A stretch of DNA of 40,428 nt from an uncultured Myxococcales bacterium (GTDB taxonomy: Bacteria > Myxococcota_A > Polyangia > Polyangiales > Polyangiaceae): assembly GCA_937902985.1 (NCBI GenBank), contig CALFNG010000384.1, forward strand, positions 1 to 40,428, read 5' to 3'. A program made the position numbers and the translations under genes. Shown here one piece after another: positions 11,929-31,825 of this stretch (positions are counted from its first letter, which is position 1; each line of letters opens with the position of its first letter). Below the pieces are notes generated by a model, which had not been told where the DNA came from, ran no database searches, and saw nothing but the letters and a program-made list of their open reading frames with translations.

Positions 11929-13350
11929 ATGTCCACGCCCATGTCGAGCGGCGCTCACCCGCACCCGAACACGCACACGCTGCTGGTCGACAATCCCTTC
12001 ACCGGCGAGCCGGCCTGCGAGGTGCCTCTGGCGGATCAGCGCGCCGCGGGCGCGGTGCTCGACCGTGCCCGGGAAGTGGCGCGGGCGTGGCGAAACAGCG
12101 CGCTGCCCGACCGGATCGCGCTCTGCGAGCGTGCCGTCGCCGCGCTCGAGGCCCGCGCCGAGTCGATTGCAGGAGACATCACGCGGATGATGGGCAAGCC
12201 GCTGGCGCAGGCGCGCGGCGAAGTGAAGACCACCTCGGCGCGCGCCCGATACCTGATCGCGATCGCGCAGACCTCACTGGCCGACGCCCCGCTGCCTCCG
12301 CTGGCCGGCTTCGAGCGGCGTGTCGTCCGCGAGCCACTCGGGGTCGTGCTCGATCTCCCGGCGTGGAACTACCCGCTGCTCACGGCCATCAACTGCGTCG
12401 TACCGGCGGTGCTCGCGGGCAACGCGGTCGTCGTGAAGCACAGCCCCCGGTCGCCCCTGTGCGGCGAGCACTTCGCGCGCGCGTTCGCCGAGGCGGGCGC
12501 TCCGCCGCACCTCGTCCAGGCGATCGACTGCGACCACGCGCAGAGCGAGCGCATGGTGGCCGACGAGCGCGTCGATCACGTGGTCTTCACCGGGAGCGTC
12601 TTCGGAGGGCACCGCATGGTCGAGGCGGCCGCGAAGCGGTTCCTCCACCCGACCCTCGAGCTCGGAGGCAACGACCCGGCGTACGTCGCCGCCGATTGCG
12701 ACCTCGCCAAGGCGGTCGAGAACGTCGTCGACGGCGCGGTCTACAACGCCGGCCAGAGCTGTTGCGCCGTCGAGAGGGTCTACGTCCACAAGTCGGTCTA
12801 CGACCGGTTCGTCGAGGCGGCGGCGCCGCTCGTGCGCGCTTACGTCATGGGCGATCCGACGCACGCCGACACGACGCTCGGGCCCATCGCCCAGCGCCCG
12901 CACGTCGCGGAGCTCGAGGCCTTCGTCGGCGACGCGTCGGCGCGCGGGGGGCGCGTCATCGCCGGCGGCAAGGCCGCGAGCGTGAACGGGTACGGCCGCT
13001 TCTTCGAGGCGACGCTCATCGCCGACTGCGACCAGTCGATGGACCTCTTCAACCGCGAGTCGTTCGGGCCAATCGTCGCCGTCATGGCCGTCGGGTCCGA
13101 CGACGAGGCCCTCGCGAAGATGAACGACTCGCGCCTCGGTCTCACCGCCAGCGTGTGGACCACCGATCGCGATCGCGCCGCGCGGCTCGCGAGAGGCCTC
13201 GAGTACGGAACGGTCTTCATGAACCGCTGCGACTACCTCGACCCGGCCCAACCCTGGGGCGGCTGGAAAGACTCCGGCCGCGGCGTCAGCCTCGGCGCGC
13301 TAGGCTTCGAGGGCCTCACCCGCCCCAAGTCGATTCACTTCCGTCTCTAG
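11929..13350 (+). CDS. NAD(P)-dependent aldehyde dehydrogenase
   Basis: 473 residues of the aldehyde dehydrogenase superfamily, oxidising an aldehyde to its carboxylate in the cytosol. Seen in order: the LPAWNYPLL loop (about 143-151) and VVKHSP for cofactor binding, FTGSVFGGHR, catalytic base E244 in LELGGND, nucleophile C278 in NAGQSCC, and the C-terminal FGPIV and PWGGWKDSGRG motifs. Length is normal. It most resembles the succinate-semialdehyde/general aldehyde group, but substrate assignment is a guess. It is a single gene, followed by a palindromic repeat and then a convergent lipoprotein gene. Confidence 0.93.
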   Translation: MSTPMSSGAHPHPNTHTLLVDNPFTGEPACEVPLADQRAAGAVLDRAREVARAWRNSALPDRIALCERAVAALEARAESIAGDITRMMGKPLAQARGEVKTTSARARYLIAIAQTSLADAPLPPLAGFERRVVREPLGVVLDLPAWNYPLLTAINCVVPAVLAGNAVVVKHSPRSPLCGEHFARAFAEAGAPPHLVQAIDCDHAQSERMVADERVDHVVFTGSVFGGHRMVEAAAKRFLHPTLELGGNDPAYVAADCDLAKAVENVVDGAVYNAGQSCCAVERVYVHKSVYDRFVEAAAPLVRAYVMGDPTHADTTLGPIAQRPHVAELEAFVGDASARGGRVIAGGKAASVNGYGRFFEATLIADCDQSMDLFNRESFGPIVAVMAVGSDDEALAKMNDSRLGLTASVWTTDRDRAARLARGLEYGTVFMNRCDYLDPAQPWGGWKDSGRGVSLGALGFEGLTRPKSIHFRL

Positions 13351-13361
13351 CTGCACGCGTT

Positions 13362-13504
13362 GAGGGGAGAGGAGATTGGCCGCTGACGCGCAGAGGACGC
13401 AAAGATGAGGGAGCCCCCGTTCACGCGGCGAACGAGACGGTCGCGACCCCAAACCCCATCTCAGCTCTGCGCCCTCTGCGCCCTCTGCGGCCCATCTCCC
13501 CCTC
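13362..13504. repeat. Palindromic GCAGAGG-type element, copy A
   Basis: The left arm (about 13362-13411, GAGATTGGCCGC followed by degenerate GCAGAGGAC units) and right arm (13465-13504, CTCTGCGCC iterated, then GCGGCCCATCTC) are imperfect reverse complements. It shares arm sequence with the elements at 30171-30274 and 35534-35713, but its left arm has decayed. It lies in the gap between the convergent aldehyde dehydrogenase gene and the small lipoprotein gene; I see no gene in 13351-13548. Confidence 0.8.
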
Positions 13505-13548
13505 GGAATCTCGCTCTCCTAGTTCCTAGTGAGGCCCCCCCCAACGAC

Positions 13549-13821
13549 TCAAGGATGGCCCATGCGGTCCACCTGGGCGCCTCGGCAGCGATCGACGCAT
13601 TCGGGGTTGTCGACGCATTGCTGGGTGCAGTCGGAGTAGCTGCCGCGGGCTTTGGCGCAGGCGGGATCGCGCTCGCATTTCATGGGATCGCGCTGGGCGG
13701 CGTTGCGCGCGCCGCTGCACGCGGCGGTCGCGATCAGCGTAGCGATGGCCGGGCCGCAGAGGGCCGCGGCGACGACGCGCAGGGGGGCCGTGCCCGAGCG
13801 CCGCGCGGTCACGCCGGTCAC
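13549..13821 (-). CDS. Small Cys-rich lipoprotein overlapping lepB
   Basis: 90 residues. The N-terminal signal sequence (RR near residue 8, hydrophobic 13-34) ends in a lipobox ATAAC with lipidated Cys35, followed by SG. The mature part has six more cysteines (49, 55, 65, 69, 75, 79) in Cx5C, Cx3C and Cx3C spacings, suggesting a disulfide-stabilised helical hairpin. The start is a GTG overlapping the lepB stop as GTGA, the arrangement expected for translational coupling. It is the last gene of a three-gene operon (lipoprotein, LepB, this protein). No family is recognised. A longer start inside lepB is possible but unlikely given the signal-peptide position. Confidence 0.75.
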   Translation of the reverse strand: MTGVTARRSGTAPLRVVAAALCGPAIATLIATAACSGARNAAQRDPMKCERDPACAKARGSYSDCTQQCVDNPECVDRCRGAQVDRMGHP

Positions 13822-15290
13822 TTCGGCAGCGGGGGGGTGGTGACGGGCGGGCGGTTCTTGAGGCAGTCTTCGAACTGCGGCTCGAGGCCGGACGCGCTCG
13901 GGGGAAGCCGCGGGCGTCCCATGACCGGAGCCCCCTCGCGCGACCAGTCCATGCCGTTGTCGCTCACGCTCAACCACACGAAGAGGGCGCGGCCGCGTAT
14001 GTTCTCGAACGGGACGCCGCCGCCCTGGCCGCCGAACCACATGCGCGAGTCGTGGCTGTTGTTGCGGTTGTCGCCCATGACCCAGACCTCTCCTTCCTTG
14101 ACGAAGAAGGGGCCCTGATACTCGTCAGGATAGCCGCGCGACGCGCGGTCGTAGAACGTCAGATACGACTCGTCGCCCAGGTACTCGACGTAGAGATCGC
14201 CCTCGTGGCGGCTGATGGGCGAGTCGTAGTCCTCGTACGTCCAGGGGCCGACGCGGCAGCTCGGCACGTCCCACCCGTTGATGATCGGGTGACCATTCCT
14301 TGCCTCGAGCTTGTCGCCCGGGGTGACGATGACGCGCTTGATGAAGTCTTGTTCCGGGTGCTCCGGGAACGCGAAGACCATCACGTCGCCGCGATGCGGC
14401 GGCATGCTCGTCCACACGCGGGAGTGCGTGTACGGAATGGCCGGGCCGTAGCTGAACTTGTTGACGAAGATGTGGTCGCCCACCATCAAGGTCGGGATCA
14501 TCGAGCCGCTCGGGATCTTGAACGCCTCGATCACGAAGGCGCGCAGAGCGAACGCGACGGCGACGGCCATCAAGATCGCCTCGATGTACTCGCGCACCTC
14601 GCTCTTGCGCCAGCGGCCGAGGTGACCGTCGACTTCGCTCTCGGCGTGGGCGAGGCACTCGAGGAACGAGTGTTCGTCGAACGGGACGCGGTCCATCGAG
14701 TCGCGGAGCTCGTCGAGGTGATCGCGGAGCTGCTGGCGTTCCCTGGAGGCGAGCTCTCGCATGACCGCCTTCTCGTTGCGGCCGAGGATCATCTCGGCCT
14801 CGTCGAGCAGCGCCCGCGCTCGCTCGAACGACCCGCGCAGGCGCACGGGCAGGTCGGGACGAAGGGGCGGGTGGGCGTGCGAGGCGAACGGCAGCTGGTG
14901 GCGCGCGGCCCAGAGCACGATCTCGAACATCGTGAAGACGACGATCGCGACCGGGACCGGCTGCGCGCGCACGAGGGACTGGATCGCCCCGAGCCCCGAC
15001 GACAGCTCGGCCCCGCTCGGCGGCGTGAGCGCCCAGACGAGCGCGGACGCGAGCACGATGGGCAACACCACGAACCAGAGGCCCCAGTAGAGCCACCGCA
15101 GGATGCGCGAGCGCGTCAACGGCGGAAGATCGGCCGCCGACCGTGGGGGCGGCCCGTCAGCATCGGCGGGGTCGGTATTGCCGTCGACCGCGTGCGCCAC
15201 GCCGTTGGTGTGCGTGGACTCTTCCGCCTTGAGCGGCTTGAGCGGACTCTCGTCGCCAACCTGCACGACTGGGGAATCTTCCGTCTTCAA
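13818..15290 (-). CDS. lepB: Signal peptidase I (LepB)
   Basis: 490-residue serine/lysine signal peptidase of the cytoplasmic membrane (family S26), which cleaves signal peptides from exported proteins. The nucleophile is S263 in KIPSGSMIP, the general base is K318 in FIKRVIVTPGD, and the conserved GDNRNNSHDSR box lies near residue 400. A long N-terminal extension (1-230) holds two membrane helices (about 66-90 and 112-130) and a helical cytosolic stretch, before the helix preceding the active site (232-254). It is longer than E. coli LepB (324 residues). The start is a TTG overlapping the upstream stop as TTGA; no better-placed ATG exists. It lies between two lipoprotein genes in the same operon. 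Confidence 0.95.
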   Translation of the reverse strand: MKTEDSPVVQVGDESPLKPLKAEESTHTNGVAHAVDGNTDPADADGPPPRSAADLPPLTRSRILRWLYWGLWFVVLPIVLASALVWALTPPSGAELSSGLGAIQSLVRAQPVPVAIVVFTMFEIVLWAARHQLPFASHAHPPLRPDLPVRLRGSFERARALLDEAEMILGRNEKAVMRELASRERQQLRDHLDELRDSMDRVPFDEHSFLECLAHAESEVDGHLGRWRKSEVREYIEAILMAVAVAFALRAFVIEAFKIPSGSMIPTLMVGDHIFVNKFSYGPAIPYTHSRVWTSMPPHRGDVMVFAFPEHPEQDFIKRVIVTPGDKLEARNGHPIINGWDVPSCRVGPWTYEDYDSPISRHEGDLYVEYLGDESYLTFYDRASRGYPDEYQGPFFVKEGEVWVMGDNRNNSHDSRMWFGGQGGGVPFENIRGRALFVWLSVSDNGMDWSREGAPVMGRPRLPPSASGLEPQFEDCLKNRPPVTTPPLPK

Positions 15291-16450
15291 GGGGCGTCAC
15301 CAAGCTGGATCACGTAGTTGACGACCGCAGCCGTATCCCCGACGCCGAAGAGCGGGGGGGGCGGGGCGGCTTGCCCCGCCGCGGACGTGTTGTCGAGCAC
15401 GACATAGTACATACCCGCCGCGACTGGCACCGCCCGCTGATATTCGACGCCGGCTTGCACGACGTCGGCGAAGCGCGGCGGATAGGCGAGCGCGCCGACC
15501 GCGCCATACTGGGTGTAGAGCTGGAGTGACGCGTCGCCCTCGGCCTTCGGTACGACGAAGACGTCGGCCGCCTGCACGCCCTCGAGGTGCATCTTGACGA
15601 AGATGGCGCGACCCGACCCCTCGACCGTGATCGGACCGATGAAGTCACGCTCGCCGGTGTGCACCTCGGTTCGCAGGTTCTCGTAGGTGACGCGGTCGGC
15701 GCCGTGCACGTCGTACGGGTGCGACGGGTGAGTTCCGACCGGCAGGTGGCCGATGCTGAAGTCGACGCTGCCGTTCGTCTCCTGAATGACCGTGAACCCC
15801 TGCCCGAGCTGGCCCGACACCATCTGCTGGCCGAACGTGTCGGCGAAGGGCGTGATCCAGTTTTGCATCAGGTTCGCGACCGGCTGCTCGATCTGGCCCA
15901 CGCGAAAGTCGGGCGCCGAGACCGACCGCGTGTCGAAGTATGCGTAGATCGCGTTGTCCTCGGCGCACTTGAAGTCCTGGTTGTATTGAATCGTCGCCGC
16001 CGAGGTGAACGTCACCTTCTTCGATAGGGCCGTCCACGCGTACCCGATCCCGTCGAACTGGACCCAGAGGTCCCCGTTCTGGAGCGTCTGCTGGGTGCAA
16101 TGCTGCGGAAAGAACCGGCCGACGACGTTCGCGTCCGGCGTCAGCTTGAGCGGCGCGTTGTGCGCCGTCATCTGCTGGCAGAACTGCCCCAGGCCGAAGC
16201 TCATGATGCTCCGGCGCAGCGTGTAGTTCGACGGATCGTTGATGGGTCCGGCGAGCTTGCACACGGCGTTCGGCGAGCAGCCGCCGGCAGCGACAACCGC
16301 GGCGAACGCCGCCGCGCTGGCCGCGAGGGATGCGACGGATGCGACGGATGCGACGGATGCGACGGATGCGACGGATGCGAGGCGTGACGAGAGCGGCCGC
16401 CCGACGGCGACGGCCCTCGGGTCTCGAAGTCGGCGCAAAGATAGGCGCAT
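15287..16450 (-). CDS. Lipoprotein of unknown function, first gene of the lepB operon
   Basis: 387 residues. An unusually long signal peptide (n-region with RRLRDPR, then ASV repeats and Ala-rich h-region) ends at lipobox AAGGC with Cys58. The mature domain of about 330 residues has four cysteines (one five residues after the lipidated Cys) and aromatic-rich beta-type patterns (YAYFDTR, VDFSIGHLPVGTHPSHPY, MYYVVLDN), suggesting an extracytoplasmic beta-rich fold. I do not recognise the family. The ATG at 16450 is chosen because a TATGCT box lies 9 nt upstream and it places a normal signal sequence first. The stop overlaps the TTG start of lepB by four bases. The signal peptide is encoded by a 9-bp tandem repeat. 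Confidence 0.85.
   Translation of the reverse strand: MRLSLRRLRDPRAVAVGRPLSSRLASVASVASVASVASVASLAASAAAFAAVVAAGGCSPNAVCKLAGPINDPSNYTLRRSIMSFGLGQFCQQMTAHNAPLKLTPDANVVGRFFPQHCTQQTLQNGDLWVQFDGIGYAWTALSKKVTFTSAATIQYNQDFKCAEDNAIYAYFDTRSVSAPDFRVGQIEQPVANLMQNWITPFADTFGQQMVSGQLGQGFTVIQETNGSVDFSIGHLPVGTHPSHPYDVHGADRVTYENLRTEVHTGERDFIGPITVEGSGRAIFVKMHLEGVQAADVFVVPKAEGDASLQLYTQYGAVGALAYPPRFADVVQAGVEYQRAVPVAAGMYYVVLDNTSAAGQAAPPPPLFGVGDTAAVVNYVIQLGDAP
16329..16382. repeat. 9-bp tandem repeat, six units, inside a signal-peptide coding region
   Basis: Five exact GATGCGACG units and a sixth, GATGCGAGG, in direct succession. On the minus strand they encode Ala-Ser-Val triplets in the hydrophobic region of the lipoprotein signal peptide. 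Since 9 is a multiple of three, copy-number change would lengthen or shorten the signal peptide without shifting the frame. Confidence 0.95.
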
Positions 16451-16459
16451 CGAGACGGC

Positions 16460-16465
16460 AGCATA
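16460..16465 (-). promoter_or_regulatory. Leaderless-type -10 box (TATGCT) of the lepB operon
   Basis: On the minus strand GCGC-TATGCT is followed by 9 nt and the ATG of the first lipoprotein gene. No ribosome site is seen in those 9 nt. Confidence 0.5.
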
Positions 16466-16589
16466 GCGCTCATGGCGTCGCAGCGAGCGAGCAACATGGC
16501 GCATGCGTGGACGCCGGCGCACCGTGGAAGCCTCGCGCCCCCGACCGTGGCGTCGGAACCGGGGCGCCCTGGGCGCGGGGGGGGCGTGC

Positions 16590-16595
16590 TAGGAT
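16590..16595 (+). promoter_or_regulatory. Leaderless-type -10 box (TAGGAT) of gpsA
   Basis: TGC-TAGGAT is followed by 8 nt and the gpsA ATG at 16604. AGGA within the box could also act as a weak ribosome site, so the two readings compete. Confidence 0.5.
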
Positions 16596-16603
16596 CGGTG
16601 ACC

Positions 16604-17650
16604 ATGAAGGTCGCCGTGCTCGGAGCCGGCGCGTGGGGAACGGCGCTGGCGTTGCTCTTGGCCGAGAAGGGGGGCGAAGTCCTCCTCTGGACGCGACGCC
16701 GCGAGCTCTGCGACGCGATCAACGCGGCGCACGAGAACGTCCGCTACCTGCCGGGGGCCAGGCTTCCGGAGAACGTGCGGTCCACGGACTCGATCGCGTC
16801 GGCGCTCGATGGCGCGCAGATGATCGTCTTCGTCGTGCCCAGTCACGCCACGCGCGAAGTGGCGCGCGAGGCCGCGCCCTTCATCCACGGCGAAGTGCCG
16901 ATCGTCAGCGCGACGAAGGGGATCGAGAACGACTCGCTCATGTTCATGGACGAGGTCCTGGCGGAGGAGCTCCCCGGCGCGCGCTCGCAGTTTGCCTTTC
17001 TCTCGGGTCCGAGCTTCGCGAAAGAGCTCGCGCACCGCTTGCCGACGGCCATCGTGATCGCCGCGCGAGACGCTGCGATCGGCTCGAGCGTGATGCGGCG
17101 CTTCCACACGCCCTACCTTCGAACCTACGCGAGCGACGACGTGGTCGGCGTCGAGTGCGGCGGGGCGCTCAAGAACGTCATCGCGATCGCCGCGGGAGCG
17201 GTCGACGGCATGGGCTTCGGCCACAACACGCGGGCCGCGCTCATCACGCGCGGTCTCTCCGAGGTCGCGAAGCTCGCGATGGCGCGCGGCGGCTCGGCGC
17301 TCACGCTCTCGGGCCTCGCGGGAATGGGCGATCTGGTGCTCACCTGCACCGGCGAGCTCTCACGGAATCGAACCGTGGGCCACGAGCTGGGCCGGGGCAA
17401 GACCCTCGACGAAGTGCTCGCCGCGCTCGGCCACGTCGCCGAGGGCGTGAAGACCGCGAAGAGCGCGCACGAGCTCGCGAAGAAGCTCGGCGTCTCGATG
17501 CCGATCACGAGCGAAGTGTACGCGGTGCTCTACGAGCAGAAGCCGGTGCAGCAGGCCGTGAAAGACCTCATGGCGCGCGAGCTCGGGTACGAGTTCGACC
17601 CCGAGGCCATCGCGCGCGCGACGCTGCGCAGCACCGACCGCCGCGACTGA
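16604..17650 (+). CDS. gpsA: NAD(P)H-dependent glycerol-3-phosphate dehydrogenase
   Basis: 348 residues, typical length. It reduces dihydroxyacetone phosphate to sn-glycerol 3-phosphate, the backbone of phospholipids, in the cytosol. The N-terminal Rossmann motif is VLGAGAWGTALA (5-16). Next come FVVPSHATREV, SATKGIE and SGPSFAKEL, then catalytic Lys near 190 in GGALKNVIAIAAG and the C-terminal GLAGMGDLVLTC plus SRNRTVG box. The start is fixed by the Rossmann strand beginning at residue 2. It is transcribed alone and divergently from the lepB operon (153 bp between starts). It converges on the copper-protein gene. Confidence 0.97.
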   Translation: MKVAVLGAGAWGTALALLLAEKGGEVLLWTRRRELCDAINAAHENVRYLPGARLPENVRSTDSIASALDGAQMIVFVVPSHATREVAREAAPFIHGEVPIVSATKGIENDSLMFMDEVLAEELPGARSQFAFLSGPSFAKELAHRLPTAIVIAARDAAIGSSVMRRFHTPYLRTYASDDVVGVECGGALKNVIAIAAGAVDGMGFGHNTRAALITRGLSEVAKLAMARGGSALTLSGLAGMGDLVLTCTGELSRNRTVGHELGRGKTLDEVLAALGHVAEGVKTAKSAHELAKKLGVSMPITSEVYAVLYEQKPVQQAVKDLMARELGYEFDPEAIARATLRSTDRRD

Positions 17651-17715
17651 CGCCCGGAGACCGACGCGCGCCCTCCCGTCGCGCCGCGGACGGTGCGCCG
17701 CAACCGCGGCTGCCC

Positions 17716-18864
17716 TCACTGCGGCACGTTGTTCGTCACCTGGCCGGCGCCGCTCGCCGTTGCTGACTGGCACTCGATGTCGTCGCCGCTCGGCGCCGAA
17801 TAGAAGCGCGCGAGGAAGATGCACATCTCGTTCTTCTGGGCCGAGTCGCCGAAGTTCAGCGTGCCGCCGGTCTGGTTGTCGTAGGTGCAGGTCCATGTGA
17901 TCGAGTCGCCGGGGTTGAGCCCGATCGGCGGGTCGTACGCGACGATGGGCGGCTCGTCCCACTCGGTGGTGTCGACGAGCTTCGTTCCGGCGCTGGTGTT
18001 CGCCACGTAGTGAATGCCGCGGCTGTGCATGTGGCTGGCGCCGCTGATGAGCGAGATGGGCCCGTAAGTCGAGGGGACCGTGCACGTCGTCGAGACCTGC
18101 TGGTTGTTGCCCGGAGGCACGCTCAGCACCGTGCGGTTGAAATAGAGCTGCGCGACCCACTTGGTCACCGTCGCCGGATCGACCTTCGTGAGCCGGACGA
18201 CCACGTTGGCCGTGTAGTCGGCCGACGCCGTGTTGAGGTAGTGGGCCTGCAACCGGAGACCGACCGACCCTTTGAGCTTGGCCGCCATGCCGGCCGGGTA
18301 CTGCGTGACGAGGTGCGGCTGACCCGCGACGTGCAAGAGCGAGCGAAACTCGAAGGGGTTCTGGCAAACGGAGACCGTCTTGCTGGCGGGGCTGTCTTCT
18401 CCGTAAAGGACGTGGAGGTGGTGCGAGCCCGCCGTCATGTCCGACTCGCTCGTTCCGATCGCCACGTCGACGCCGTTGAACGGGTTGTCGAAGTCCTGGC
18501 ACATGAAGACTTCTTTGCCGGCGGGCACGACGAAGCTCCCCATCGTGATCGTGACCGTGTTCGGATCGCTCACGGACGCGTCGACCGAGCCCGACCCGCC
18601 TCCCGCGGCGCCCGAGCCGCTGCCGGAATTCGTGGTTCCGTTCGCGGAGCCACCGGTTCCGCTCGCGGAGCCACCGGTTCCGCTGGAGCCGGCGCCGCCG
18701 CTGGCGCCCGGGGACGACGAGCCGCCCGCGTTGTCACTCGAACCGCCGGCGCCCGGATCCGACCCCGACGCGGACCCCGTGGAGCCGCTGCCGCCCGACC
18801 CGCCGGTTCCGCAAGAAAGGCCCAAGACGGCCGCCATCAAGGCAACGACTCGCCACGTCTGCAT
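17716..18864 (-). CDS. PHM-like copper type II monooxygenase-family lipoprotein
   Basis: 382 residues. The signal peptide ends at lipobox LGLSC (Cys18), then comes a Gly/Ser-rich spacer to about 97, and then a two-domain fold like peptidylglycine alpha-hydroxylating monooxygenase (Cu2_monooxygen families). All copper ligand positions can be matched. CuH: His-His at 148-149 in SHHLHVLYG and H208 in LQAHYLN. CuM: H278 and H280 in SHMHSRG and M347 in KNEMCIF. In this family two uncoupled coppers hydroxylate a substrate using ascorbate-type reductants. The protein is probably an outer-membrane or surface lipoprotein; the substrate is unknown. AAAGGAG lies 10 nt before the ATG. Confidence 0.85.
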   Translation of the reverse strand: MQTWRVVALMAAVLGLSCGTGGSGGSGSTGSASGSDPGAGGSSDNAGGSSSPGASGGAGSSGTGGSASGTGGSANGTTNSGSGSGAAGGGSGSVDASVSDPNTVTITMGSFVVPAGKEVFMCQDFDNPFNGVDVAIGTSESDMTAGSHHLHVLYGEDSPASKTVSVCQNPFEFRSLLHVAGQPHLVTQYPAGMAAKLKGSVGLRLQAHYLNTASADYTANVVVRLTKVDPATVTKWVAQLYFNRTVLSVPPGNNQQVSTTCTVPSTYGPISLISGASHMHSRGIHYVANTSAGTKLVDTTEWDEPPIVAYDPPIGLNPGDSITWTCTYDNQTGGTLNFGDSAQKNEMCIFLARFYSAPSGDDIECQSATASGAGQVTNNVPQ

Positions 18865-19202
18865 CTCTTTTCAGCTCCTTTCCGAGCCCAGAGCTCGCGT
18901 TCCCCATCAATGACCGAGCGGATGCTCGCACGCGAGCACGTGGTCGGCAAGCGCCGAAAAGGTTCATGAGATCGAGGGATTGGGACGTTTTATTTTTGAA
19001 GCCTGAGCGTAACGGACCGGCCGACGATGGCCGCCTGCGTCTCCCTTCTCAGAAGGTCCCTTCGAGAAGGGCTCCTCCGCCACCCGGCAGGGGCGAGGGC
19101 GCGGCGTCGAGGCCCGGAGGCTCACCATCGCGCACCGCGATCTCGCGGTCGCAGGTGACGCTCGCTCTGCTCGGCTCGTCCGGTTGGCGCTAGCATGGGT
19201 CG
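18865..19202. other. 338-bp divergent intergenic region
   Basis: It separates the copper-protein gene (minus) from the Pro/Gln-rich envelope protein (plus). It holds the AAAGGAG ribosome site of the former (18875-18881 on the opposite strand), an operator-like dyad at 18923-18938 (7-bp arms, 2-nt centre), an AT-rich stretch near 18988-19001 and a hairpin at 19043-19071 (8-bp arms). No convincing gene is present. Confidence 0.6.
19191..19196 (+). promoter_or_regulatory. Leaderless-type -10 box (TAGCAT) of the envelope protein gene
   Basis: GGCGC-TAGCAT is followed by 6 nt and the ATG at 19203. No ribosome site is present. Confidence 0.5.
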
Positions 19203-20414
19203 ATGCGCCGATGGCTCGTTGGTGGGGTGCTGCCGTTCGCTTGCGTGGCTTGGTCTTCGCTCGCGGCATCGCAGTATCCGCCGCAGCCGCAGGCGCCTCA
19301 ACCTTACTCGCCTCCGCAGCCGTATCCCCCGCAGCAACAACCATATCCGCAACAGCCGTATCCTCCTCAGCCCCCTCAGCCGCCGTATCCGGCGCCCCCT
19401 CCGCAGGCGCAGCCGTACGCCCAACCGCAGCCGCAACCGCAGCCTTATCCCCAGCAACCGCAGCCCTACCCGCCGCCGATTCCCACCCCTTACGGGCCCA
19501 CCCCTTACGGGCAGCCCATTCCCGCCCCCTACGGGCAGCCCGCGCCGCCGCTGCAGCCTCTCGCACCCGCGCCGAGCCGGTACCGAAGCGGGGGCGAGAT
19601 GGCCTACCTGTACGGAGTCGGCTTCGCCTACGGCGTGGGCTCGGGGATCTGGATCGACGCGCTCGCCAAGGAGAGCGATCCGGGCATCGCGTTCATCGCG
19701 CCGCTGCTCCTCGGCGCCGCGGTTCCGGTGGCCGTCTACGCGTGGGACTACAACCAGGAGTTCGATCGCGGAGTCCCGTCGTCGATCGCGACCGGCCTGC
19801 TCCTCGGAGGCATCGAGGGCACCGCGATCGACGGGCTCCAGTGGCAGCTCTCGGGGAACGACGGCCCGAACTCGTGGACGTTCCGCACCTGGACGACGGT
19901 CACCTTCCTCGGGGCGACGGCCGGCGGGATCGGCGGGTACCTGTTCGGCGAGGCGATCCAGCCCGACCCTCGCAGTCTCGGACTCATCTCGAGCGGCGCC
20001 GGCTGGGGCGCTGCCGCGGGCATCCTCTTCGGATCGGGCGTGGTCGGCGGAGACTGGAAAGACGGGGCCGCGGTCTGGGGCTTCACCGGATACAACGCCG
20101 GCATTCTCGCCGCGGGGGTGGTCTCGACGGTCTACGTCCCCTCGTGGCAGACGCTGAAATACATGTGGCTGGGCGACGTGCTCGGCACCCTCGCCACGAC
20201 GCCGGTGTACTTCTTCTACATCGGGAGCGACGCGGAGCCTCGCCACGGGCTCATCGCGAACGCGGTCGGCGGCCTCGCGGGCCTGAGCCTCGCCGCGGCC
20301 CTGACCGCCAACATGACCGACTCACCCGGCACGGCCTCGTGGGCGCCGCCCTTTCAGGTCTCGGTGAGCCCGAGCCCGGGCGGCGGGCAGGTCATGGCCT
20401 TCGGGCAGTGGTAA
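19203..20414 (+). CDS. Envelope protein with Pro/Gln/Tyr-rich N-terminal region
   Basis: 403 residues. A signal peptide (1-23, cleavage near AAS-QY) is followed by about 100 residues of low-complexity Pro/Gln/Tyr (YPPQ, QPYP and similar repeats). The remaining 280 residues have several hydrophobic, Gly-rich segments (GVGFAYGVGSG, AFIAPLLLGAAVPVAVYAW, SIATGLLLGG, VTFLGATAGGIGGYLFG and others). These could be membrane helices or beta-strands of an outer-membrane protein. No family is recognised; similar Pro-rich secreted proteins are frequent in myxobacteria. Its TAA stop is part of the U-tract of a terminator serving the opposite strand. Confidence 0.82.
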   Translation: MRRWLVGGVLPFACVAWSSLAASQYPPQPQAPQPYSPPQPYPPQQQPYPQQPYPPQPPQPPYPAPPPQAQPYAQPQPQPQPYPQQPQPYPPPIPTPYGPTPYGQPIPAPYGQPAPPLQPLAPAPSRYRSGGEMAYLYGVGFAYGVGSGIWIDALAKESDPGIAFIAPLLLGAAVPVAVYAWDYNQEFDRGVPSSIATGLLLGGIEGTAIDGLQWQLSGNDGPNSWTFRTWTTVTFLGATAGGIGGYLFGEAIQPDPRSLGLISSGAGWGAAAGILFGSGVVGGDWKDGAAVWGFTGYNAGILAAGVVSTVYVPSWQTLKYMWLGDVLGTLATTPVYFFYIGSDAEPRHGLIANAVGGLAGLSLAAALTANMTDSPGTASWAPPFQVSVSPSPGGGQVMAFGQW

Positions 20415-20453
20415 AAAAACGGCGAGGCTTCCCTTCTCAGGGGAGCCTCGCCG
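20413..20453 (-). terminator. Rho-independent terminator of the 52-residue lipoprotein gene
   Basis: Read on the minus strand, a strong GC-rich hairpin (arms within 20421-20452: GGCGAGGCT pairs with AGCCTCGCC, continuing into GGG/CCC with one bulge) is followed directly by seven Ts (20413-20419). It is 25 bp beyond the TAA of the small lipoprotein gene. There is no T-run on the plus strand, so it is a proper terminator only for minus-strand transcription. Confidence 0.9.
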
Positions 20454-20477
20454 GGTACTTCAGGGTCCTTCGAGCGA

Positions 20478-20636
20478 TTACTTGCTCGTCGCCGGTGCCG
20501 CGGACGAATCAGCGGGGGCCGACGACGATGCGCTGGTGTCGGGGCTAGCGGGCGCCGGCGTGCCACCGCCGCAAGCCGCCAGGGCCCCAACCGCCGCCAT
20601 CGTCGCAAGAAGAGCGGCAATTGCGATGTTCTTCAT
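20478..20636 (-). CDS. 52-residue lipoprotein
   Basis: Very small gene with complete expression signals. The ATG at 20636 is preceded by GAGGAGAA with a 7-nt spacer. The product starts with MKNIAIAALLATMAAV, a typical signal peptide, ends at a lipobox ALAAC (Cys22) and continues with about 30 residues of GGG, Pro, Ser and Ala. There is no folded domain, so the mature lipopeptide is a short flexible tail anchored in a membrane. A promoter (20685-20714) and terminator (20413-20453) delimit a monocistronic unit. The role is unknown; Lpp-like small abundant lipoproteins are a loose analogy only. Confidence 0.85.
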   Translation of the reverse strand: MKNIAIAALLATMAAVGALAACGGGTPAPASPDTSASSSAPADSSAAPATSK

Positions 20637-20684
20637 GATCGTCTTCTCCTCAAAAACAGCCCCGAGCTAGTCGAGGACGGCGTC

Positions 20685-20714
20685 CTTATGCACCAGTTCG
20701 GGATAGCTCGTCAA
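20685..20714 (-). promoter_or_regulatory. Sigma-70-like promoter of the 52-residue lipoprotein gene
   Basis: On the minus strand a TTGACG -35 box (20709-20714) and CATAAG -10 box (20685-20690) are separated by 18 bp. Start of transcription near 20678 would give a leader of about 42 nt containing the GAGGAGAA ribosome site. The remaining sequence up to the activator gene at 20954 contains no gene I can support. Confidence 0.45.
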
Positions 20715-20953
20715 TTGCGTGTCGACGGGCGCCCGAAGGGGGAACCGCGGACGGCCCCCCAATATGGCCCTGCGCGCCCTGCGCAACGAGGGCTTTTCGC
20801 TCCCAGACCGAGGGAGACGCGCCGAGCGCCGAATTGAGGTACTCTGTTTCGACACCTTTTCGTGTTGCCCTCAAGCGGTCGGCCTCGACGCGGCCGCGAC
20901 TCCTACGGCGGCGCCGTCAAGCGGGCGCCGCAGACGCAGCTTCGTTCGCCGCG

Positions 20954-22858
20954 ATGCCGATCCTCAAATGGTTTCCACCTCTAGGTCCGCCGCGGACGTT
21001 CGTGCTCCACAAGCCCGTGACGACGCTGGGCCGCGCGCTCGGTAACGACGTGGCCCTGGCCGGTGACGGGCTCGCCGAGACGCACGCGCAGATTCTCTTC
21101 GACGGTCGCGACTTCAACCTCGAAGAGATCGACCGCCAGGCCGATATCCTCGTCAACGGGAAGAAGAAGCGGCGCGCGCGCCTGGTCCACGGCGACCGGG
21201 TGACGCTCGGCGAAGTGGCGTTCGCCTTCAGCATGTTCGACGAGCCCCAGAAGGTCGGCGCTCCCGCCACCGACGGCGCTCCGGCGACGATGACCGAGAC
21301 GCAGCTCAACGTGACCAACCAGCAGCTCGCCGCGTTCCGGAAGCTCTACGAGTTCAGCGAGAAGCTGATGACGCTGACCGACATCGACCCGCTCCTCGGG
21401 GCGATGCTCGACGCCGTCATCGAGGTGACCGGCGCGGAGAAGGGGCTCATCCTCCTGAACGACGACGCGTTCACCACGACCGCGCCTAAGGCGCCCGAGG
21501 CCAACGGAGCGCGACGCGCGAGCATCCGCGCGGCCCGCAACGTCAAGCGCGAGGCGGTCGCCGAGGCGGGCGGGGCGATCAGCGACAGCATCGTCAAGAA
21601 GGTGCTCGAGACCGGCCGGCCAGTCATCGTGAGCGACGCCCTGAGCGACGCGCAGTTCAAGAGCAGCGAGAGCGTGCTCGCCCTTCGCCTCTCGAGCGTC
21701 ATGTGCGCCCCGTTCGCGTCGCAGGGGCAGGTGCAAGGCGTGCTCTACGTCGGCAACGACCGGGTCAAGAACCTGTTCGACAAGGCCCAGCTCGACGTCC
21801 TCTCGATCTTCGCGTCGCAGGCGAGCCTCATCCTCGAGAACGCGATGCTCCTCAACGCCCTCCGCGCCGACAAGGAGAAGCTCGTCGCCGAGCTGAAAGA
21901 CAAGCGCTTCGGCGAGATCATCGGGGCGTGTCCCTCGATGATGGAGGTCTTCCGCAAGCTGCAGAAGGTGGCCACGACCGACATCTCCGTGCTCATCACC
22001 GGCGAGACGGGCACCGGCAAGGAGCTCATCGCCCGCGAGATCCACCGGCGAAGCAACCGCGTGAACGGTCCGTTCGTCGTCATCAACTGCGGCGCCATTC
22101 CAGAGAATCTCATCGAGAGCGAGCTGTTCGGGCACGTGCGCGGGGCGTTCACGGGCGCCGTCGCGTCGCGCCCGGGCAAGTTCCAGGTCGCCAACGGAGG
22201 CACGCTCTTCCTCGACGAGATCGGCGAGCTCCCGCTGAACCTCCAGGTCAAGCTGCTCCGCGCGCTCCAGGAGCGGGTGGTCTTCCGCGTCGGGGAGAGC
22301 AAGCCCGAGAAGGTCGACATTCGCGTCGTCGCCGCCACCAACCGGGTGCTCGAAGAAGAGATCCGGGCCGGGCGCTTCCGCGAGGACCTCTACTACCGCC
22401 TCAACGTCGTGAACCTGTTCTTGCCCCCCCTGCGCGAGAGGGGCGACGACGTGCTCATCATCGCGCGCGCCCTCCTCTCCAAGCACTCCGAGGAGCTGGG
22501 CCGACACGTGCAAGGCCTCACGCCGCAGGCGCTCGCCGCGATCAAGAAGAGCCCGTGGCCGGGGAACATTCGCCAGCTCGAGAACCGCATCAAGAAGGCA
22601 CTGGTCCTGTGCGACCGCACCCTCTTGACGCCGGAAGACCTCGACCTCGGCAAAGAGGCCGAGAGCTTGATCCTGCCGCTCGAGAAGGCAAAAGAAGAGT
22701 TTCAGCGCAAGTACGTGCTCGACATCCTCGAGCGCAACAACGGAAACCGCACGCAGACGGCTCGCGACCTCGGCGTCGACCCCCGCACGATCTTTCGCTA
22801 CCTCGAGCGCGAAGCGAACCCGCCCCCGCCCGGCGGCGCGAAGTCCGCAGACGAATAG
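20954..22858 (+). CDS. Sigma-54-dependent transcriptional activator with FHA and GAF domains
   Basis: 634 residues. An N-terminal FHA domain (about 15-95: TTLGRALGNDV, ETHAQILFDG, VNGKKKRRARLVHGDRVTLG) binds phosphothreonine peptides. A GAF domain follows (about 130-305), then an AAA+ sigma-54 interaction domain with Walker A GETGTGKE (350-357), the GAFTGA loop (397-402) and Walker B GGTLFLDEIGE (about 415). A Fis-type helix-turn-helix lies at about 596-622 (NRTQTARDLGVDPRTIFRYL). The intact GAFTGA loop means it can activate sigma-54 RNA polymerase. The FHA domain suggests control by Ser/Thr kinases. ATG 20954 is chosen because the FHA strand pattern begins at once; upstream in-frame codons look non-coding. 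It is 33 bp from the GH15 gene downstream. I saw no -24/-12 promoter nearby. Confidence 0.94.
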   Translation: MPILKWFPPLGPPRTFVLHKPVTTLGRALGNDVALAGDGLAETHAQILFDGRDFNLEEIDRQADILVNGKKKRRARLVHGDRVTLGEVAFAFSMFDEPQKVGAPATDGAPATMTETQLNVTNQQLAAFRKLYEFSEKLMTLTDIDPLLGAMLDAVIEVTGAEKGLILLNDDAFTTTAPKAPEANGARRASIRAARNVKREAVAEAGGAISDSIVKKVLETGRPVIVSDALSDAQFKSSESVLALRLSSVMCAPFASQGQVQGVLYVGNDRVKNLFDKAQLDVLSIFASQASLILENAMLLNALRADKEKLVAELKDKRFGEIIGACPSMMEVFRKLQKVATTDISVLITGETGTGKELIAREIHRRSNRVNGPFVVINCGAIPENLIESELFGHVRGAFTGAVASRPGKFQVANGGTLFLDEIGELPLNLQVKLLRALQERVVFRVGESKPEKVDIRVVAATNRVLEEEIRAGRFREDLYYRLNVVNLFLPPLRERGDDVLIIARALLSKHSEELGRHVQGLTPQALAAIKKSPWPGNIRQLENRIKKALVLCDRTLLTPEDLDLGKEAESLILPLEKAKEEFQRKYVLDILERNNGNRTQTARDLGVDPRTIFRYLEREANPPPPGGAKSADE

Positions 22859-22887
22859 TCCGCCGGCACGGGTTCTGCTCAAGCTCC

Positions 22888-22898
22888 GGAGGTGCCCC
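22888..22898 (+). promoter_or_regulatory. Ribosome site that questions the GH15 start codon
   Basis: GGAGG at 22888-22892 overlaps the first base of the GTG at 22892, too close to serve it, but lies 5 nt before an in-frame CTG at 22898. Either the GTG is used without this site or translation starts at the rare CTG. The conserved family N-terminus (RIEDYALLGD) follows immediately in both cases. Confidence 0.5.
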
Positions 22899-24703
22899 TG
22901 AGAATCGAGGACTACGCCCTTCTCGGCGACTGCCAGACCGCCGCGCTCGTAGGGCGCGATGGCTCCATCGACTGGCTGTGTCTCCCGCGGTTCGACTCGG
23001 GCGCGTGCTTCGCGGCGCTCCTCGGCTCGCCGGAGCACGGGCGGTGGCTCGTCGCGCCCGCCGCCCCCATCAAGCGCGTGTCGCGCGCTTACCGGCAGGG
23101 CACGCTGATCCTCGACACGACCTTCGAGACGGAGAGCGGCGCGGTCACTGTCACCGACTTCATGCCGATGCGCGACAGCGCGCCGCACGTCGTCCGCACC
23201 GTACGCGGGGTGCGCGGCCGGGTGCCGATGCGGACCGAGTTCGTCGTGCGCTTCGACTACGGCTCGATCGTCCCCTGGGTCCGAAAGGCCGACAGCGGCA
23301 TCCGCGCCATCGCAGGGCCGGACTGCGTTCGCCTGCAGAGCAGCGTCCCGCTGCGCGGCGAAGGCATGACGACCGTCGCCGACTTCGACGTCTCCGAAGG
23401 CGAGACGGCGTCGTTCGTACTCGCCTGGTACCCGTCGCACGGGCGTGAGCCGCGCGAGGTCGACGCGGCGATCGCGCTCGAGCGCACCGAGACGGCCTGG
23501 CGCAAGTGGTCGGCCCGGTGCAACTACGAGGGCCCGTGGCGCGACGCGGTGCTGCGCTCGCTCGTCACGCTCAAGGGCCTGACGCACACGGCGACCGGCG
23601 GCATCGTCGCCGCGCCGACGACGTCGCTCCCCGAGTTCATCGGCGGGCCCCGCAACTGGGACTACCGCTTCTGCTGGGTTCGCGACGCGACCTTCACGTT
23701 GCTCGCGCTCCTGCACAACGGCTTCGCCGACGAGGCCCGCGACTGGCGCGAGTGGCTGCTCCGGGCGATCGCGGGCGACCCCTCGAAGCTCCAGATCATG
23801 TACGGCGTCGACGGCGAGCGACGCCTCGACGAGCAAGAGATTCCCTGGCTCCCGGGATACGAAGGGTCGCTCCCGGTGCGCATCGGCAACGGCGCGTACC
23901 GGCAGCGTCAGCTCGACGTCTACGGCGAGGTGATGGACGCCCTCCACCAGTGCCACGAGCACGGCATGCCCGGCGACGAGAACTCGTGGAACTTGCGGCG
24001 CGGGATGCTGGAATTCCTGGAGACCTGCTGGGACCAGCCCGACGAAGGCATCTGGGAGGTCCGGGGCCCTGCGCGGCAGTTCACGCACTCGAAGGTGATG
24101 GCCTGGGTGGCCTTCGACCGCGCCGTGAAGCGATTGGAGAAGGTGGGCGCCGGGCCCGACGACGGCAAGCTCCTCGGACGCTGGCGCGGCCTCCGCGAGC
24201 GCATGCACGAAGAGATCTGCGTGAAGGGCTTCGACGGAACGATCGGCGCGTTCGTGCAGTCTTACGGGTCCGAGAGGCTCGACGCGAGCGTCCTCATGAT
24301 CCCGCTCGTCGGCTTCTTGCCGCCCAACGACGCGCGCGTTCGCAGCACCGCGCACGTCATCGAAGCGCGCCTTCTCGAAGGGGGCTTCGTGCGACGCTAC
24401 GAGAGCGACCGGCGGGTCGACGGGCTCCCCGAGGGCGAGGGCGTCTTTCTGCCCTGCACGTTCTGGCTCGCCGACAACTGGGCGATGATGGGTCGCGAAA
24501 CCGACTCGCGCGCGATGTTCGAGCGGCTCGTGGCCCTCTCGAACGACGTCGGCCTCCTCTCGGAGGAGTACGACGTGACCCGGAACCGGCAGGTCGGCAA
24601 CTTTCCGCAGGCGTTCTCGCACGTGTCGCTCGTCAACACCGCGCGCAATCTGAGTCCCCGGGGTGACGCGCAGGGCGGCCCGGCGCGGCGTCGAAGCGCG
24701 TAG
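22892..24703 (+). CDS. Glycoside hydrolase family 15 (glucoamylase/trehalase-like)
   Basis: 603 residues, normal length for bacterial GH15 proteins. The N-terminal beta-sandwich domain begins RIEDYALLGDCQTAALVGRD; the (alpha/alpha)6 catalytic barrel begins near 215. Family hallmarks are GGPRNWDYRFCWVRDA (about 250-265), GYEGSLPVRIGN, catalytic acid near E389 in GIWEVRG and a Glu near 557 in LLSEEYD as base, followed by GNFPQAFSHVSLVN. The family hydrolyses alpha-glucosidic bonds of glycogen-like glucans or trehalose. There is no signal peptide, so it acts in the cytosol. It closely follows the sigma-54 activator gene and may share its transcript. The exact start is GTG 22892 or CTG 22898. Confidence 0.92.
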   Translation: MPLRIEDYALLGDCQTAALVGRDGSIDWLCLPRFDSGACFAALLGSPEHGRWLVAPAAPIKRVSRAYRQGTLILDTTFETESGAVTVTDFMPMRDSAPHVVRTVRGVRGRVPMRTEFVVRFDYGSIVPWVRKADSGIRAIAGPDCVRLQSSVPLRGEGMTTVADFDVSEGETASFVLAWYPSHGREPREVDAAIALERTETAWRKWSARCNYEGPWRDAVLRSLVTLKGLTHTATGGIVAAPTTSLPEFIGGPRNWDYRFCWVRDATFTLLALLHNGFADEARDWREWLLRAIAGDPSKLQIMYGVDGERRLDEQEIPWLPGYEGSLPVRIGNGAYRQRQLDVYGEVMDALHQCHEHGMPGDENSWNLRRGMLEFLETCWDQPDEGIWEVRGPARQFTHSKVMAWVAFDRAVKRLEKVGAGPDDGKLLGRWRGLRERMHEEICVKGFDGTIGAFVQSYGSERLDASVLMIPLVGFLPPNDARVRSTAHVIEARLLEGGFVRRYESDRRVDGLPEGEGVFLPCTFWLADNWAMMGRETDSRAMFERLVALSNDVGLLSEEYDVTRNRQVGNFPQAFSHVSLVNTARNLSPRGDAQGGPARRRSA

Positions 24704-24829
24704 CCGGGCGGCCGTCGAGCACAGTCAGAAGCGCCTCGGCTCGCGGCGCGAGTGGCAAATCGCGTCGCGATGGCCGGAACACGTCGGCCCGACTAGCGCC
24801 GCACCGCGTCGGGACGCAGCGACACCACG

Positions 24830-25216
24830 ATGACCGGCGACGTCGTGACCCGCGCCGTTCCGCCGCTCGAGAATCCGCCCGGCATGCAGCCTCGTGAGAG
24901 CGGATTGGGCCTCGCGCTTGCAGTAGCCCCCGGCATGGCAACTCTAGAGGAAGGGACGTGCTCGCTGACCGCGGCGATCGAGCACGCCGCGCGGAGCCTC
25001 GCGCTCGCGCGAGAAATCCTGTCGACCGACGATCCGCCCCGCGTGCCTCATGCGCGCGAAGAGGCGAAGGCGCGGGTGCGCACGGAGATCACACACGTGA
25101 CGCGCTTGCTCGAAAATACGTCCGAGCCCACCGAGACGTCGTTCGCCGCGCTCAACCGCGCCGCGCGTCAGCTCGACGACGAAGCAGCCAACCTCGACCG
25201 TGCTCTGCATCCCTAG
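24830..25216 (+). CDS. Small helical protein of unknown function
   Basis: 128 residues if it starts at ATG 24830; a second ATG at 24935 would give 93 residues. Codons 36-128 show strong G/C third-position bias and predict long amphipathic helices (AIEHAARSLALAREIL, AREEAKARVRTEITHVTRLL, SFAALNRAARQLDDEAANL). The first 35 codons have a weaker bias, so the shorter form is quite possible. There is no signal peptide, cysteine cluster or known domain. No ribosome site decides the start. The preceding 126 bp (24704-24829) hold nothing recognisable. Confidence 0.5.
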   Translation: MTGDVVTRAVPPLENPPGMQPRESGLGLALAVAPGMATLEEGTCSLTAAIEHAARSLALAREILSTDDPPRVPHAREEAKARVRTEITHVTRLLENTSEPTETSFAALNRAARQLDDEAANLDRALHP

Positions 25217-25327
25217 CGGAGGAGAAACCGCAGAGGCGCGAAGATCGGGGGTTTGCGGGTCGCTAGCCCCGCCCAATACGGACAAACCGGGCGCCCAAGG
25301 AGCTCAGCGCGCTTGCGAGCCGCACGG

Positions 25328-25507
25328 TCAGCCCGGGCGGCTGGAGCGGCGCTTTGCCATGGGCGTTTGCTCCACGGTCTGCTGGAGCTCGACCGACGGG
25401 TCCCAGACGTGGTGGCAGCGCGGGCACGTGATCTCGACGACCTCCGGCTTCACCGGAGGCAGCGTGACGAAGCACGCGGGGCAGACGACGCGCTCATCCG
25501 CAGCCAT
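25328..25507 (-). CDS. Small zinc-ribbon protein
   Basis: 59 residues. Two CxxC knuckles (C9/C12 in CPAC and C28/C31 in CPRC, followed by HHVWDPS) form a zinc ribbon like the MJ0042 type found at the N-terminus of many myxobacterial proteins. Here it stands alone, with a charged, unstructured tail (QTPMAKRRSSRPG). A TACGCT box lies 6 nt before the ATG and there is no ribosome site, fitting a leaderless message. It lies downstream of metK on the same strand, 230 bp away; that gap shows no gene I can support. It may be a nucleic-acid or protein adaptor; the function is unknown. Confidence 0.65.
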   Translation of the reverse strand: MAADERVVCPACFVTLPPVKPEVVEITCPRCHHVWDPSVELQQTVEQTPMAKRRSSRPG

Positions 25508-25513
25508 GAATCC

Positions 25514-25519
25514 AGCGTA
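25514..25519 (-). promoter_or_regulatory. Leaderless-type -10 box (TACGCT) of the zinc-ribbon gene
   Basis: On the minus strand GCGC-TACGCT is followed by 6 nt and the ATG at 25507. Confidence 0.45.
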
Positions 25520-25737
25520 GCGCGCCTTGAGCGGGTTGGCGCGGGATTCCGTGAGCCGCGCGCGCGGCACGCCAGGAGGCGCGCCCGGAGAGGGCCGATC
25601 CGCGCGCCGAATCCACGCGCGCGCGAGGCGCGGCCGATGCCGCGCGGGGCAGCGCAGGGGCGGAAAGGAGCAACGATTCCATGAGAAGGCTCCCCCCGGC
25701 CGCTCACGCTTCGCACTAACCCTGCTCGCTCTTCGTC

Positions 25738-26976
25738 TCAGGCTTCGGCGGGGGCGCCGCGCTTGGAGGGCTTGCCGGCGGGCGGGGCCTTCTTGCCGTT
25801 GGCGGCGCTGCCCTTGCTGGAGCGCAGGAGGTCGTCGGCGATCTTGGCGGCGCGGCCTGTCTTCTCCCAGGAGAACTCGGAGCGGCCGAAGTGGCCATAG
25901 GCGGCGGTCTTCTTGTAGATGGGGGCGAGGAGCGCGAGCTCCTCGATGAGCGCCTTGGGACGCATGTCGAAGTTCTTGAGAATGTACTTCTCGAGCGTCT
26001 CGTCGGTGATCTTGCCGGTGCCGAACGTGTTCACGTGCACGCCGACCGGCTGCGCGACGCCGATCGCGTAAGCGATCTGTACCTCGCACCGCTGCGCCAC
26101 GCCCGACGCGACGACGTTCTTGGCGATGAAGCGGGCGTAGTAGCAGGCGCTCCGGTCGACCTTGCTCGGATCTTTTCCGCTGAACGCGCCGCCGCCGTGA
26201 CGGCCCATGCCGCCGTACGAGTCGACGATGATCTTGCGACCGGTGAGGCCGCAGTCGCCCTGGGGCCCGCCGACGACGAACCGCCCCGTGGGGTTGACGT
26301 GGAGCTTCGTGGCCTTGTCGATGAGCTTCTTCGGAAGCGACTTCTCGATCACGAGCTCGATGACGGCTTCGCGGAGCTGCTTGTACTTGACCTTCTCGTC
26401 GTGCTGCGTCGAGACCACGATGGCGTCGATACGCACGGGGACGTCGTTCTCGTACTCGAGCGTGACCTGCGTCTTGCCGTCGGGGCGCAGGAAGTCGACC
26501 GCCTTCTTCTTCCGGACGGCCGCGAGCTGCTTCGCGAGGAGGTGCGCGTAATGAATAGGCGCCGGCATGAGCTCGGGGGTCTCGTCGGTCGCGTACCCAA
26601 AGACGAGCCCCTGGTCGCCCGCGCCCTGCTCCTTGTGGAGGCCGTCGCCCTCGTTGACGCCCTGGGCGATGTCCGGGCTCTGCCGCTCGATGGCCGTGAG
26701 CACCGCGCAGGTCTCGCTGTCGAAGCCGATGGCCGAGTCGGTGTAGCCGATGTCCCTGACCGTTTGCCGGACGATGGGAACGAACTCGACCTTCGCCGTG
26801 GTGGTGATTTCACCGGCGACGACGACCATGCCCGTCTTCGCGAGCGACTCGCAGGCCACGCGGGCGCGGGGGTCTTGCTCGAGGATCGCGTCGAGGATCG
26901 CGTCGGACACCTGGTCGCACAGCTTGTCCGGATGCCCCTCGGTGACGGACTCGGACGTGAAACGGTAGCGGGACAT
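25738..26976 (-). CDS. metK: S-adenosylmethionine synthetase
   Basis: 412 residues. It makes S-adenosylmethionine from methionine and ATP in the cytosol. The N-terminus has [22 protein letters not shown] (metal and ATP site). Further on are [12 protein letters not shown] (about 118-129), DGKTQVT and the triphosphate-site region [21 protein letters not shown] with [16 protein letters not shown]. The C-terminal 25 residues are a Lys/Ala/Gly-rich tail ([16 protein letters not shown]) beyond the usual end of the enzyme. AAGGAG lies 10 nt before the ATG. It is divergent from gcvP; both belong to one-carbon metabolism. I found no SAM riboswitch in the leader. Confidence 0.97.
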
Positions 26977-27278
26977 TCGACGTTCTCTCCTTGGCCAAGG
27001 CTCGGCGCGAGCTGGGCGCCGGCTCTGCGGGCGCCGTTGTCATAAAGCCTTTTCCGGTCACGGTCGAGCGATAGTCGAGCGCCTCTCGAGCCTTTTGGCC
27101 TTTGTCGAGCCTGCGCGCCGGCGAACGTGCGCGAGCGCGCGAGCGCGGGTGCGCCAGCACGCGCCGCACGCGCCGGCACGCCCCAGCATCGCCCCGGCAC
27201 GCCCGCTTCGCGAGAGGCGCTCCCGCCCCGGTATCGACCTAGCCAAGCGCACACGGCGGCAGTAGACACGTGAGCGCC
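26977..27278. other. 302-bp divergent region between metK and gcvP
   Basis: It holds the metK ribosome site (AAGGAG, 26987-26992), a GGCGCC inverted pair (27015-27020 and 27030-27035), a possible metK promoter (27039-27067) and a very GC-rich stretch with short direct repeats of CCGGCACGCCC (27120-27230). TAGACA at 27263-27268 lies 10 nt before the gcvP ATG. No gene is seen. Confidence 0.55.
27039..27067 (-). promoter_or_regulatory. metK: Possible sigma-70-like promoter of metK
   Basis: On the minus strand TCGACC (27062-27067) and TATGAC (27039-27044) are separated by 17 bp; each matches four of six consensus positions. A start near 27032 would give a leader of about 55 nt that begins with the GGCGCC hairpin and contains the AAGGAG site. 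Confidence 0.35.
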
Positions 27279-30170
<2,892 letters not shown>

Positions 30171-30274
30171 GAGCTGGGCCGCAGAGGCGCAGAGGGCGCC
30201 GAGCCGAGACCACGAGCGTTCCGAACCCCTTTTCCTCTCTGCTTTGCGCCCTCTGCGCCTCTGCGGCCCATCTC
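30171..30274. repeat. Palindromic GCAGAGG-type element, copy B
   Basis: Arms 30171-30199 and 30246-30274 are reverse complements at 28 of 29 positions, with a 46-base loop. The arm begins GAG(C/A)TGGGCCGCAGAGGCGC. The element starts at the first base after the gcvP stop and lies between gcvP and the convergent START-like gene, where its transcript would fold into a long hairpin at both 3' ends. Confidence 0.92.
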
Positions 30275-30368
30275 GTCTTCGAGCGTGAGCCGCACTGAGC
30301 CCGGCCCGCGGAGAGCGGGTCTGACGGAGCGCAGGGTCGCCCCCCTGGCGGCGACCGTGCCGCGTCCC

Positions 30369-30794: not shown

Positions 30795-30823
30795 GGCGGC
30801 GCATCTTTTCACGAAATTGCGCC

Positions 30824-31768: not shown

Positions 31769-31819
31769 CGCCGCCCCCCTTCTAGCATTCCGCCGTCCGC
31801 GGCCCTCGCTCGAACTTGC

Positions 31820-31825
31820 TATAAC
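31820..31825 (+). promoter_or_regulatory. Extended -10 box (TATAAC) of the sulfatase-like gene
   Basis: TTGC-TATAAC lies 13 nt before the ATG at 31839. TGN before the hexamer makes it an extended -10 type; no -35 box is visible. The predicted leader is about 6 nt, with no ribosome site. Confidence 0.5.

Follow-up and report, generated by a model that had tools for sequence, protein, structure and literature searches.

A conserved family of small predicted lipoproteins encoded beside a sigma54 activator gene in myxobacteria

Our analysis of the window, the whole stretch of 40,428 nucleotides considered here, indicates that a short unit on its minus strand, running from position 20714 down to 20413, encodes a predicted lipoprotein belonging to a real, conserved family of small lipoproteins that is ordinary in kind and carries no name in the two libraries searched, Pfam and NCBIfam. 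The literature that we searched likewise yielded no description of this family. As for what such a protein might do, we consider it rather probable that it is an envelope lipoprotein, optional and confined to its lineage, that docks on a partner through its membrane-proximal motif.

The gene occupies 20478..20636 of the minus strand (52 codons, the coordinates including the stop), as delimited by sequence and by its orthologues, with its ATG at 20636 and a TAA stop that ends at 20478. A ribosome binding site, GAGGAG, lies 9 nt upstream of the ATG (20646..20651, minus strand). The predicted protein begins with MKN and carries a signal peptide at residues 1-21 (20574..20636, minus strand) that closes with LAA before Cys22, giving the lipobox LAAC; it has the sequence features of a type II signal peptide, and a structure model places its single helix at residues 4-22, that is, on the signal peptide. 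Cleavage before Cys22 would leave a mature peptide of 31 residues by our count, in agreement with the figure of about 31 given in an earlier note on this DNA. The mature part starts with Cys22 and the membrane-proximal motif CGGGTPAPASPD (residues 22-33; 20538..20573, minus strand), marked out by alignment and pooled constraint, and is modelled with a mean pLDDT of 44-57 per block, with no confident structure. The earlier note had also placed a promoter, ribosome site, ATG, signal peptide, lipobox, stop and terminator within about 300 bp, and on inspection each of these could be read directly. How readily would such a combination arise by chance? When ORFs of 40-100 codons are filtered for both a ribosome site and a lipobox, two remain in the window against a mean of 0.0 in 60 shuffles, the second being antisense, inside the regulator gene described below. 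We take the predicted unit to be beyond chance and read it as a genuine single-gene transcription unit.

Transcription of this unit would end at an intrinsic terminator at 20413..20453 of the minus strand, recognised by folding and by a comparison of T-runs, in which a stem-loop at 20453-20420 (14 pairs, one mismatch) is followed by seven Ts at 20419-20413. The 71-nt stretch containing the terminator has a folding z of -3.6, with 1 of 200 shuffles equally stable. T-runs of six or more occur only twice in the window, both strands considered: the one behind the lipoprotein gene follows a hairpin of -28.2 kcal/mol, whereas the other (7437, minus strand) follows one of -9.5 kcal/mol, and the description of the former as the clearest terminator in the window is true for T-runs on these values. 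The T-run had further been said to overlap the stop of the convergent gene; it does so by two bases, that stop being the TAA at 20412-20414. Of 30 loci, the window included, 12 have a predicted hairpin and T-rich tail 3' of the gene (one of them, in G012, weak).

At the other end of the unit, the predicted promoter consists of a -35 element, TTGACG, within AATTGACG (20709..20714, minus strand), and a -10 element, CATAAG, within GCATAAG (20685..20690, minus strand), with an 18-nt spacer between them. Written as AATTGACR-N18-CATAA, the pattern is found exactly in 6 of the 14 genomes scanned (G000, G002 and G074-G077), at one site per genome and always 5' of the lipoprotein gene; from the remaining 8 of the 14 the exact pattern is absent. 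When the six promoters are stacked, AATTGAC and GCATAA are unbroken and most of the remaining columns vary. We take this predicted promoter to be sigma70-like and kept in relatives. Certain other members have promoter-like sequences of their own, for example TGGTCA-18-TAGAAT, picked up by a mechanical scan. A generic scan of positions 13000-32000 listed neither the promoter nor the terminator of the lipoprotein gene; its promoter rule needs a T as the final base of the -10 hexamer, where here there is a G, and its terminators numbered 8 against 7.8 in shuffles. Since the generic scan missed both elements, the case rests on the relatives, and by sequence comparison it is conservation there that settles the reality of the predicted unit. 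The promoter motif as the mark of a wider regulon was considered and rejected: sites with one mismatch number 17, scattered over the 14 genomes, and a backward control pattern gives 3.

The predicted 5' leader in the window holds a small hairpin followed by TTTTT (20676-20660), directly 5' of the ribosome site. A stable leader hairpin was rejected, the folding z of 0.0 to -1.9 in six genomes being no better than shuffles, and Rfam gave 0 matches in the window at its gathering score. In two other loci (L133 and L134, in G090 and G095) a TAGAAT box ends 8 nt 5' of the ATG, with no ribosome site detected; in these two genomes the lipoprotein mRNA is possibly leaderless.

The earlier note had pointed to related genomes as the place where a conserved short frame would show itself, and one is found there, together with its lipobox, its synteny, its promoter and purifying selection. 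In G002, a genome of the same genus, a 62-residue protein with 69% identity over 51 codons is encoded between the same two neighbours. A single-sequence search of 58 relatives returned one strong match, to G002 (2.2e-7), with the remainder weak because the tail of the lipoprotein is low-complexity. The remaining members were recovered through synteny, with the convergent gene, conv, serving as locus finder: 70 of 95 conv loci were read, 21 of those 70 were re-read, and the 70 revealed small lipoproteins, one locus after another, in the interval that separates conv from the divergent gene, reg. With a profile built from 21 sequences we then searched 183 of the order's genomes, at most 35 candidates per genome being scored. 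Among the best 37 rows of this search 33 lie at a reg or conv locus, 14 of those 33 outside the set from which the profile was built, and matches at E 0.001, many of them weak, occur in at least 103 of the 183 genomes. Our collection stands at 36 sequences from 33 genomes, the window included; 29 of the genomes belong to the same family as the window and 4 to another (f8, the second family below), all in one order, probably the Polyangiales. Tandem double copies of the gene are present in G022, G108 and G109.

The gene is also missing from many places where it could have stood. In G001, again of the same genus, conv and reg are three bases apart with no lipoprotein gene between them, and in 27 of the 70 loci similarity to reg starts less than 200 nt from the conv stop, with no member detected. 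The regions upstream of reg, read as 60 stretches in 59 genomes, some of which overlap with the 70 loci, contain one clear member (G010), along with a lipoprotein of a similar kind, a probable member, in three genomes of a further family, f6 (G132, G134 and G136). Given the absence from G001 and from many of these loci, we conclude that the lipoprotein gene is optional and lineage-specific.

The convergent gene conv (19203..20414, plus strand) encodes 403 aa, with a Pro/Gln/Tyr-rich N-terminal part followed mostly by helices; it has no Pfam match at E 0.001, and its model, with about nine helices and a mean pLDDT of 72, has no PDB match at E 0.001. It occurs in 95 of 108 family genomes at E 1e-6, and the 25 named conv loci are labelled Myxococcales, Polyangiaceae, Labilithrix, 'delta proteobacterium' (two), Sorangium cellulosum (one) and Nannocystis exedens (one). 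The divergent gene reg (20954..22858, plus strand) encodes, by domain and similarity searches, a sigma54 activator with the domain order FHA-GAF-sigma54 activator-Fis HTH, its start being set at the ATG at 20954, the point where similarity begins. The lipoprotein gene is divergent from reg on the same contig in 29 of the 33 genomes, at a distance of 79-1013 nt in 28 of them, the 29th being G077. In the exceptions it lies on the far side of conv on the strand of reg (G013), adjoins conv with reg elsewhere (G035), or has reg on a separate contig (G062 and G075). Since the second family keeps the pair with reg and no conv was found next to it there, the place beside reg looks like the oldest association of the lipoprotein gene. 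Among 177 genomes sampled from the order, 160 have a strong match to reg, as do 247 of 377 sampled from the phylum, both groups being larger than the sample; there is usually one match per genome, and the spread is far wider than that of the lipoprotein.

The lipoprotein gene is under purifying selection, strongest beside the anchor. Of 15 pairs compared, some of which share a genome, 14 give a dN/dS of 0.03-0.44 and one is saturated; for the window against G002 the ratio is 0.17. Pooling 10 of these pairs, without error bars, gives pN/pS of 0.38 in the signal peptide, 0.34 in the tail and 0.17 in the 13 residues that begin with the lipobox cysteine, making those 13 residues the most constrained segment. 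A KPPLTPD-like stretch stands beside the anchor in 21 of the 36 sequences and a shorter K/T-P-A/P form in 14, among them the window, whose copy has a weakened motif, TPAPASPD in place of KPPLTPD; the variant in G171 is KPANSP. Around the cysteine itself, the preceding residue is A or G in all 36, Gly follows in 34, and position -3 of the lipobox is L, V or I in only 19. The Ala/Ser/Pro tail is variable and of low complexity; its last residue is Lys in 20 of 36, the window included, and N, H, S, G, D or T in 16.

How could so small a protein work? In E. coli, lipoproteins are sorted by the residue at +2, with Asp distinguishing those that are kept from routing to the outer membrane. From its sequence we expect the window's signal peptide to be cut before Cys22 and the cysteine to be lipidated; Gly rather than Asp at +2 would then send the 31-residue peptide to the outer membrane, under a rule that is E. 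coli's and may not be that of the host group. In that membrane, a segment of about 12 residues adjoining the anchor would dock on an envelope protein or complex, which the peptide would serve as accessory or assembly factor; the Ala/Ser/Pro tail would form a variable, probably disordered spacer. By analogy, the nearest known case of such a working mode would be LptM (YifL), which acts through a short motif adjoining its lipid anchor; published work on LptM describes the motif at the lipobox as conserved and the remainder as poorly conserved outside Enterobacteriaceae (PMC10567701). The likeness would lie in a tiny lipoprotein with Gly after Cys, a conserved stretch at the anchor (CG, Lys, Pro-Leu, Pro) and a short variable tail, yet we do not take the protein to be LptM. 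A stronger version, that these are a new family of Polyangiales envelope-assembly lipopeptides in which CGGxxKPPLTPD docks on an outer-membrane machine, reaching the LptM principle by convergence in bacteria in which no LptD is detected, seems to us unlikely.

Could the family instead be divergent LptM, an assembly factor for the LPS translocon protein LptD? From the Cys, E. coli LptM reads CGLKGPLYFP, to be set beside CGGxxKPPLTPD in many of our members, and in both the motif is followed by a short, poorly conserved portion (PMC10567701). However, a Pfam search with 21 members, taken to E 10, does not list PF13627, which exceeds its cut-off in 0 of 19 relatives, though in controls it does so in only 1 of 14 genomes; NF047847 scores no higher than 17.1 bits where its cut-off is 27.7, the alignment covering the first 21 of its 31 positions; and hhalign against E. 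coli LptM aligns only the signal peptide and CG, with probability 29. LptD (PF04453) was detected in none of the 177 genomes searched from the order; the model matches 2 of 14 control genomes and may miss a diverged LptD. The order either is without an LptD-type LPS translocon or has one too diverged for PF04453. The neighbourhood differs as well, E. coli having lptM next to dapF, in contrast to the sigma54 activator gene reg and the helical conv here. As neither the family models, nor the search for LptD, nor the comparison of profiles spoke for it, homology to LptM was rejected, and we give it hardly any weight. The members resemble other known families in part. Lpp is marked by an invariant C-terminal Lys and a helical, coiled-coil mature part, and a Braun-type tether, that is, a small abundant lipoprotein linked to peptidoglycan via its C-terminal lysine, would suit the size of our protein and the final Lys of the window copy and its 19 companions; yet the other 16 sequences end differently, the low-confidence model has no helix in the mature part, and no Lpp family is among the Pfam matches up to E 10. 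The tether was rejected on the C-terminal Lys, which is not invariant, and we regard it as very improbable. Entericidin-type small lipoproteins are of comparable size and Ala-rich, but their family did not come up when 21 members were searched against Pfam to E 10, and the genes described here have a fixed place beside a regulator gene. Across those 21 members all Pfam and NCBIfam matches up to E 10 are below cut-off where a cut-off is given. The best Pfam E-value, also under cut-off, is 0.0065 for New_glue, and the closest library entry by member count is NF058595, 'invert_tail', an NCBIfam model weakly matched by 17 of the 21 (best E 0.00055 to 0.00071); the match is well under cut-off, at 18.4 of 37 bits for the window, and covers the signal peptide and first mature residues.

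Two further readings concern what the gene is for, if for anything. The lipoprotein might belong to the circuit of the divergent activator reg, as a target gene or an envelope-side signal, as its divergent position in 29 of 33 genomes across two families would suggest, along with further lipobox ORFs divergent from reg in more genomes, for example in family f6. On the other hand, the predicted promoter is sigma70-like, reg is far more widespread than the lipoprotein gene, and two genomes, G035 and G013, have the gene next to conv in a position that is not divergent from reg. A sigma54 site between the divergent genes was rejected, none in the window at 20637-20960 being a convincing -24/-12 site and the best having 9 of 12 letters without the GG/GC core. 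We accordingly hold a role in the circuit of reg to be doubtful. Alternatively, the peptide could be expressed yet functionally idle, retained by chance, as its absence from G001 and many relatives and its low-complexity tail might hint; against this, dN/dS is below 0.5 in 14 of 14 computable pairs, the motif is kept and so is the promoter, in two genera, and there is very little to be said for idleness.

The envelope lipoprotein that docks through its membrane-proximal motif thus remains our preferred reading. The work on LptM indicates that tiny lipoproteins can serve as working parts of envelope machines, and, with its clear motif, kept place and clean expression signals, the present family could serve as a way into the study of the myxobacterial envelope. 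Even as no more than an optional accessory, it would be a gene family without a name in Pfam and NCBIfam.

Lipoproteins of other kinds also occur next to reg. In family f6 a different lipoprotein with an NRTxxTICFLYLSP-like stretch is divergent from reg at L229, L232, L233, L234 and L236, with lengths of 112 and 115 aa in the two measured, and larger lipobox ORFs are likewise divergent from reg at L211, L225, L239, L244, L245 and L249.
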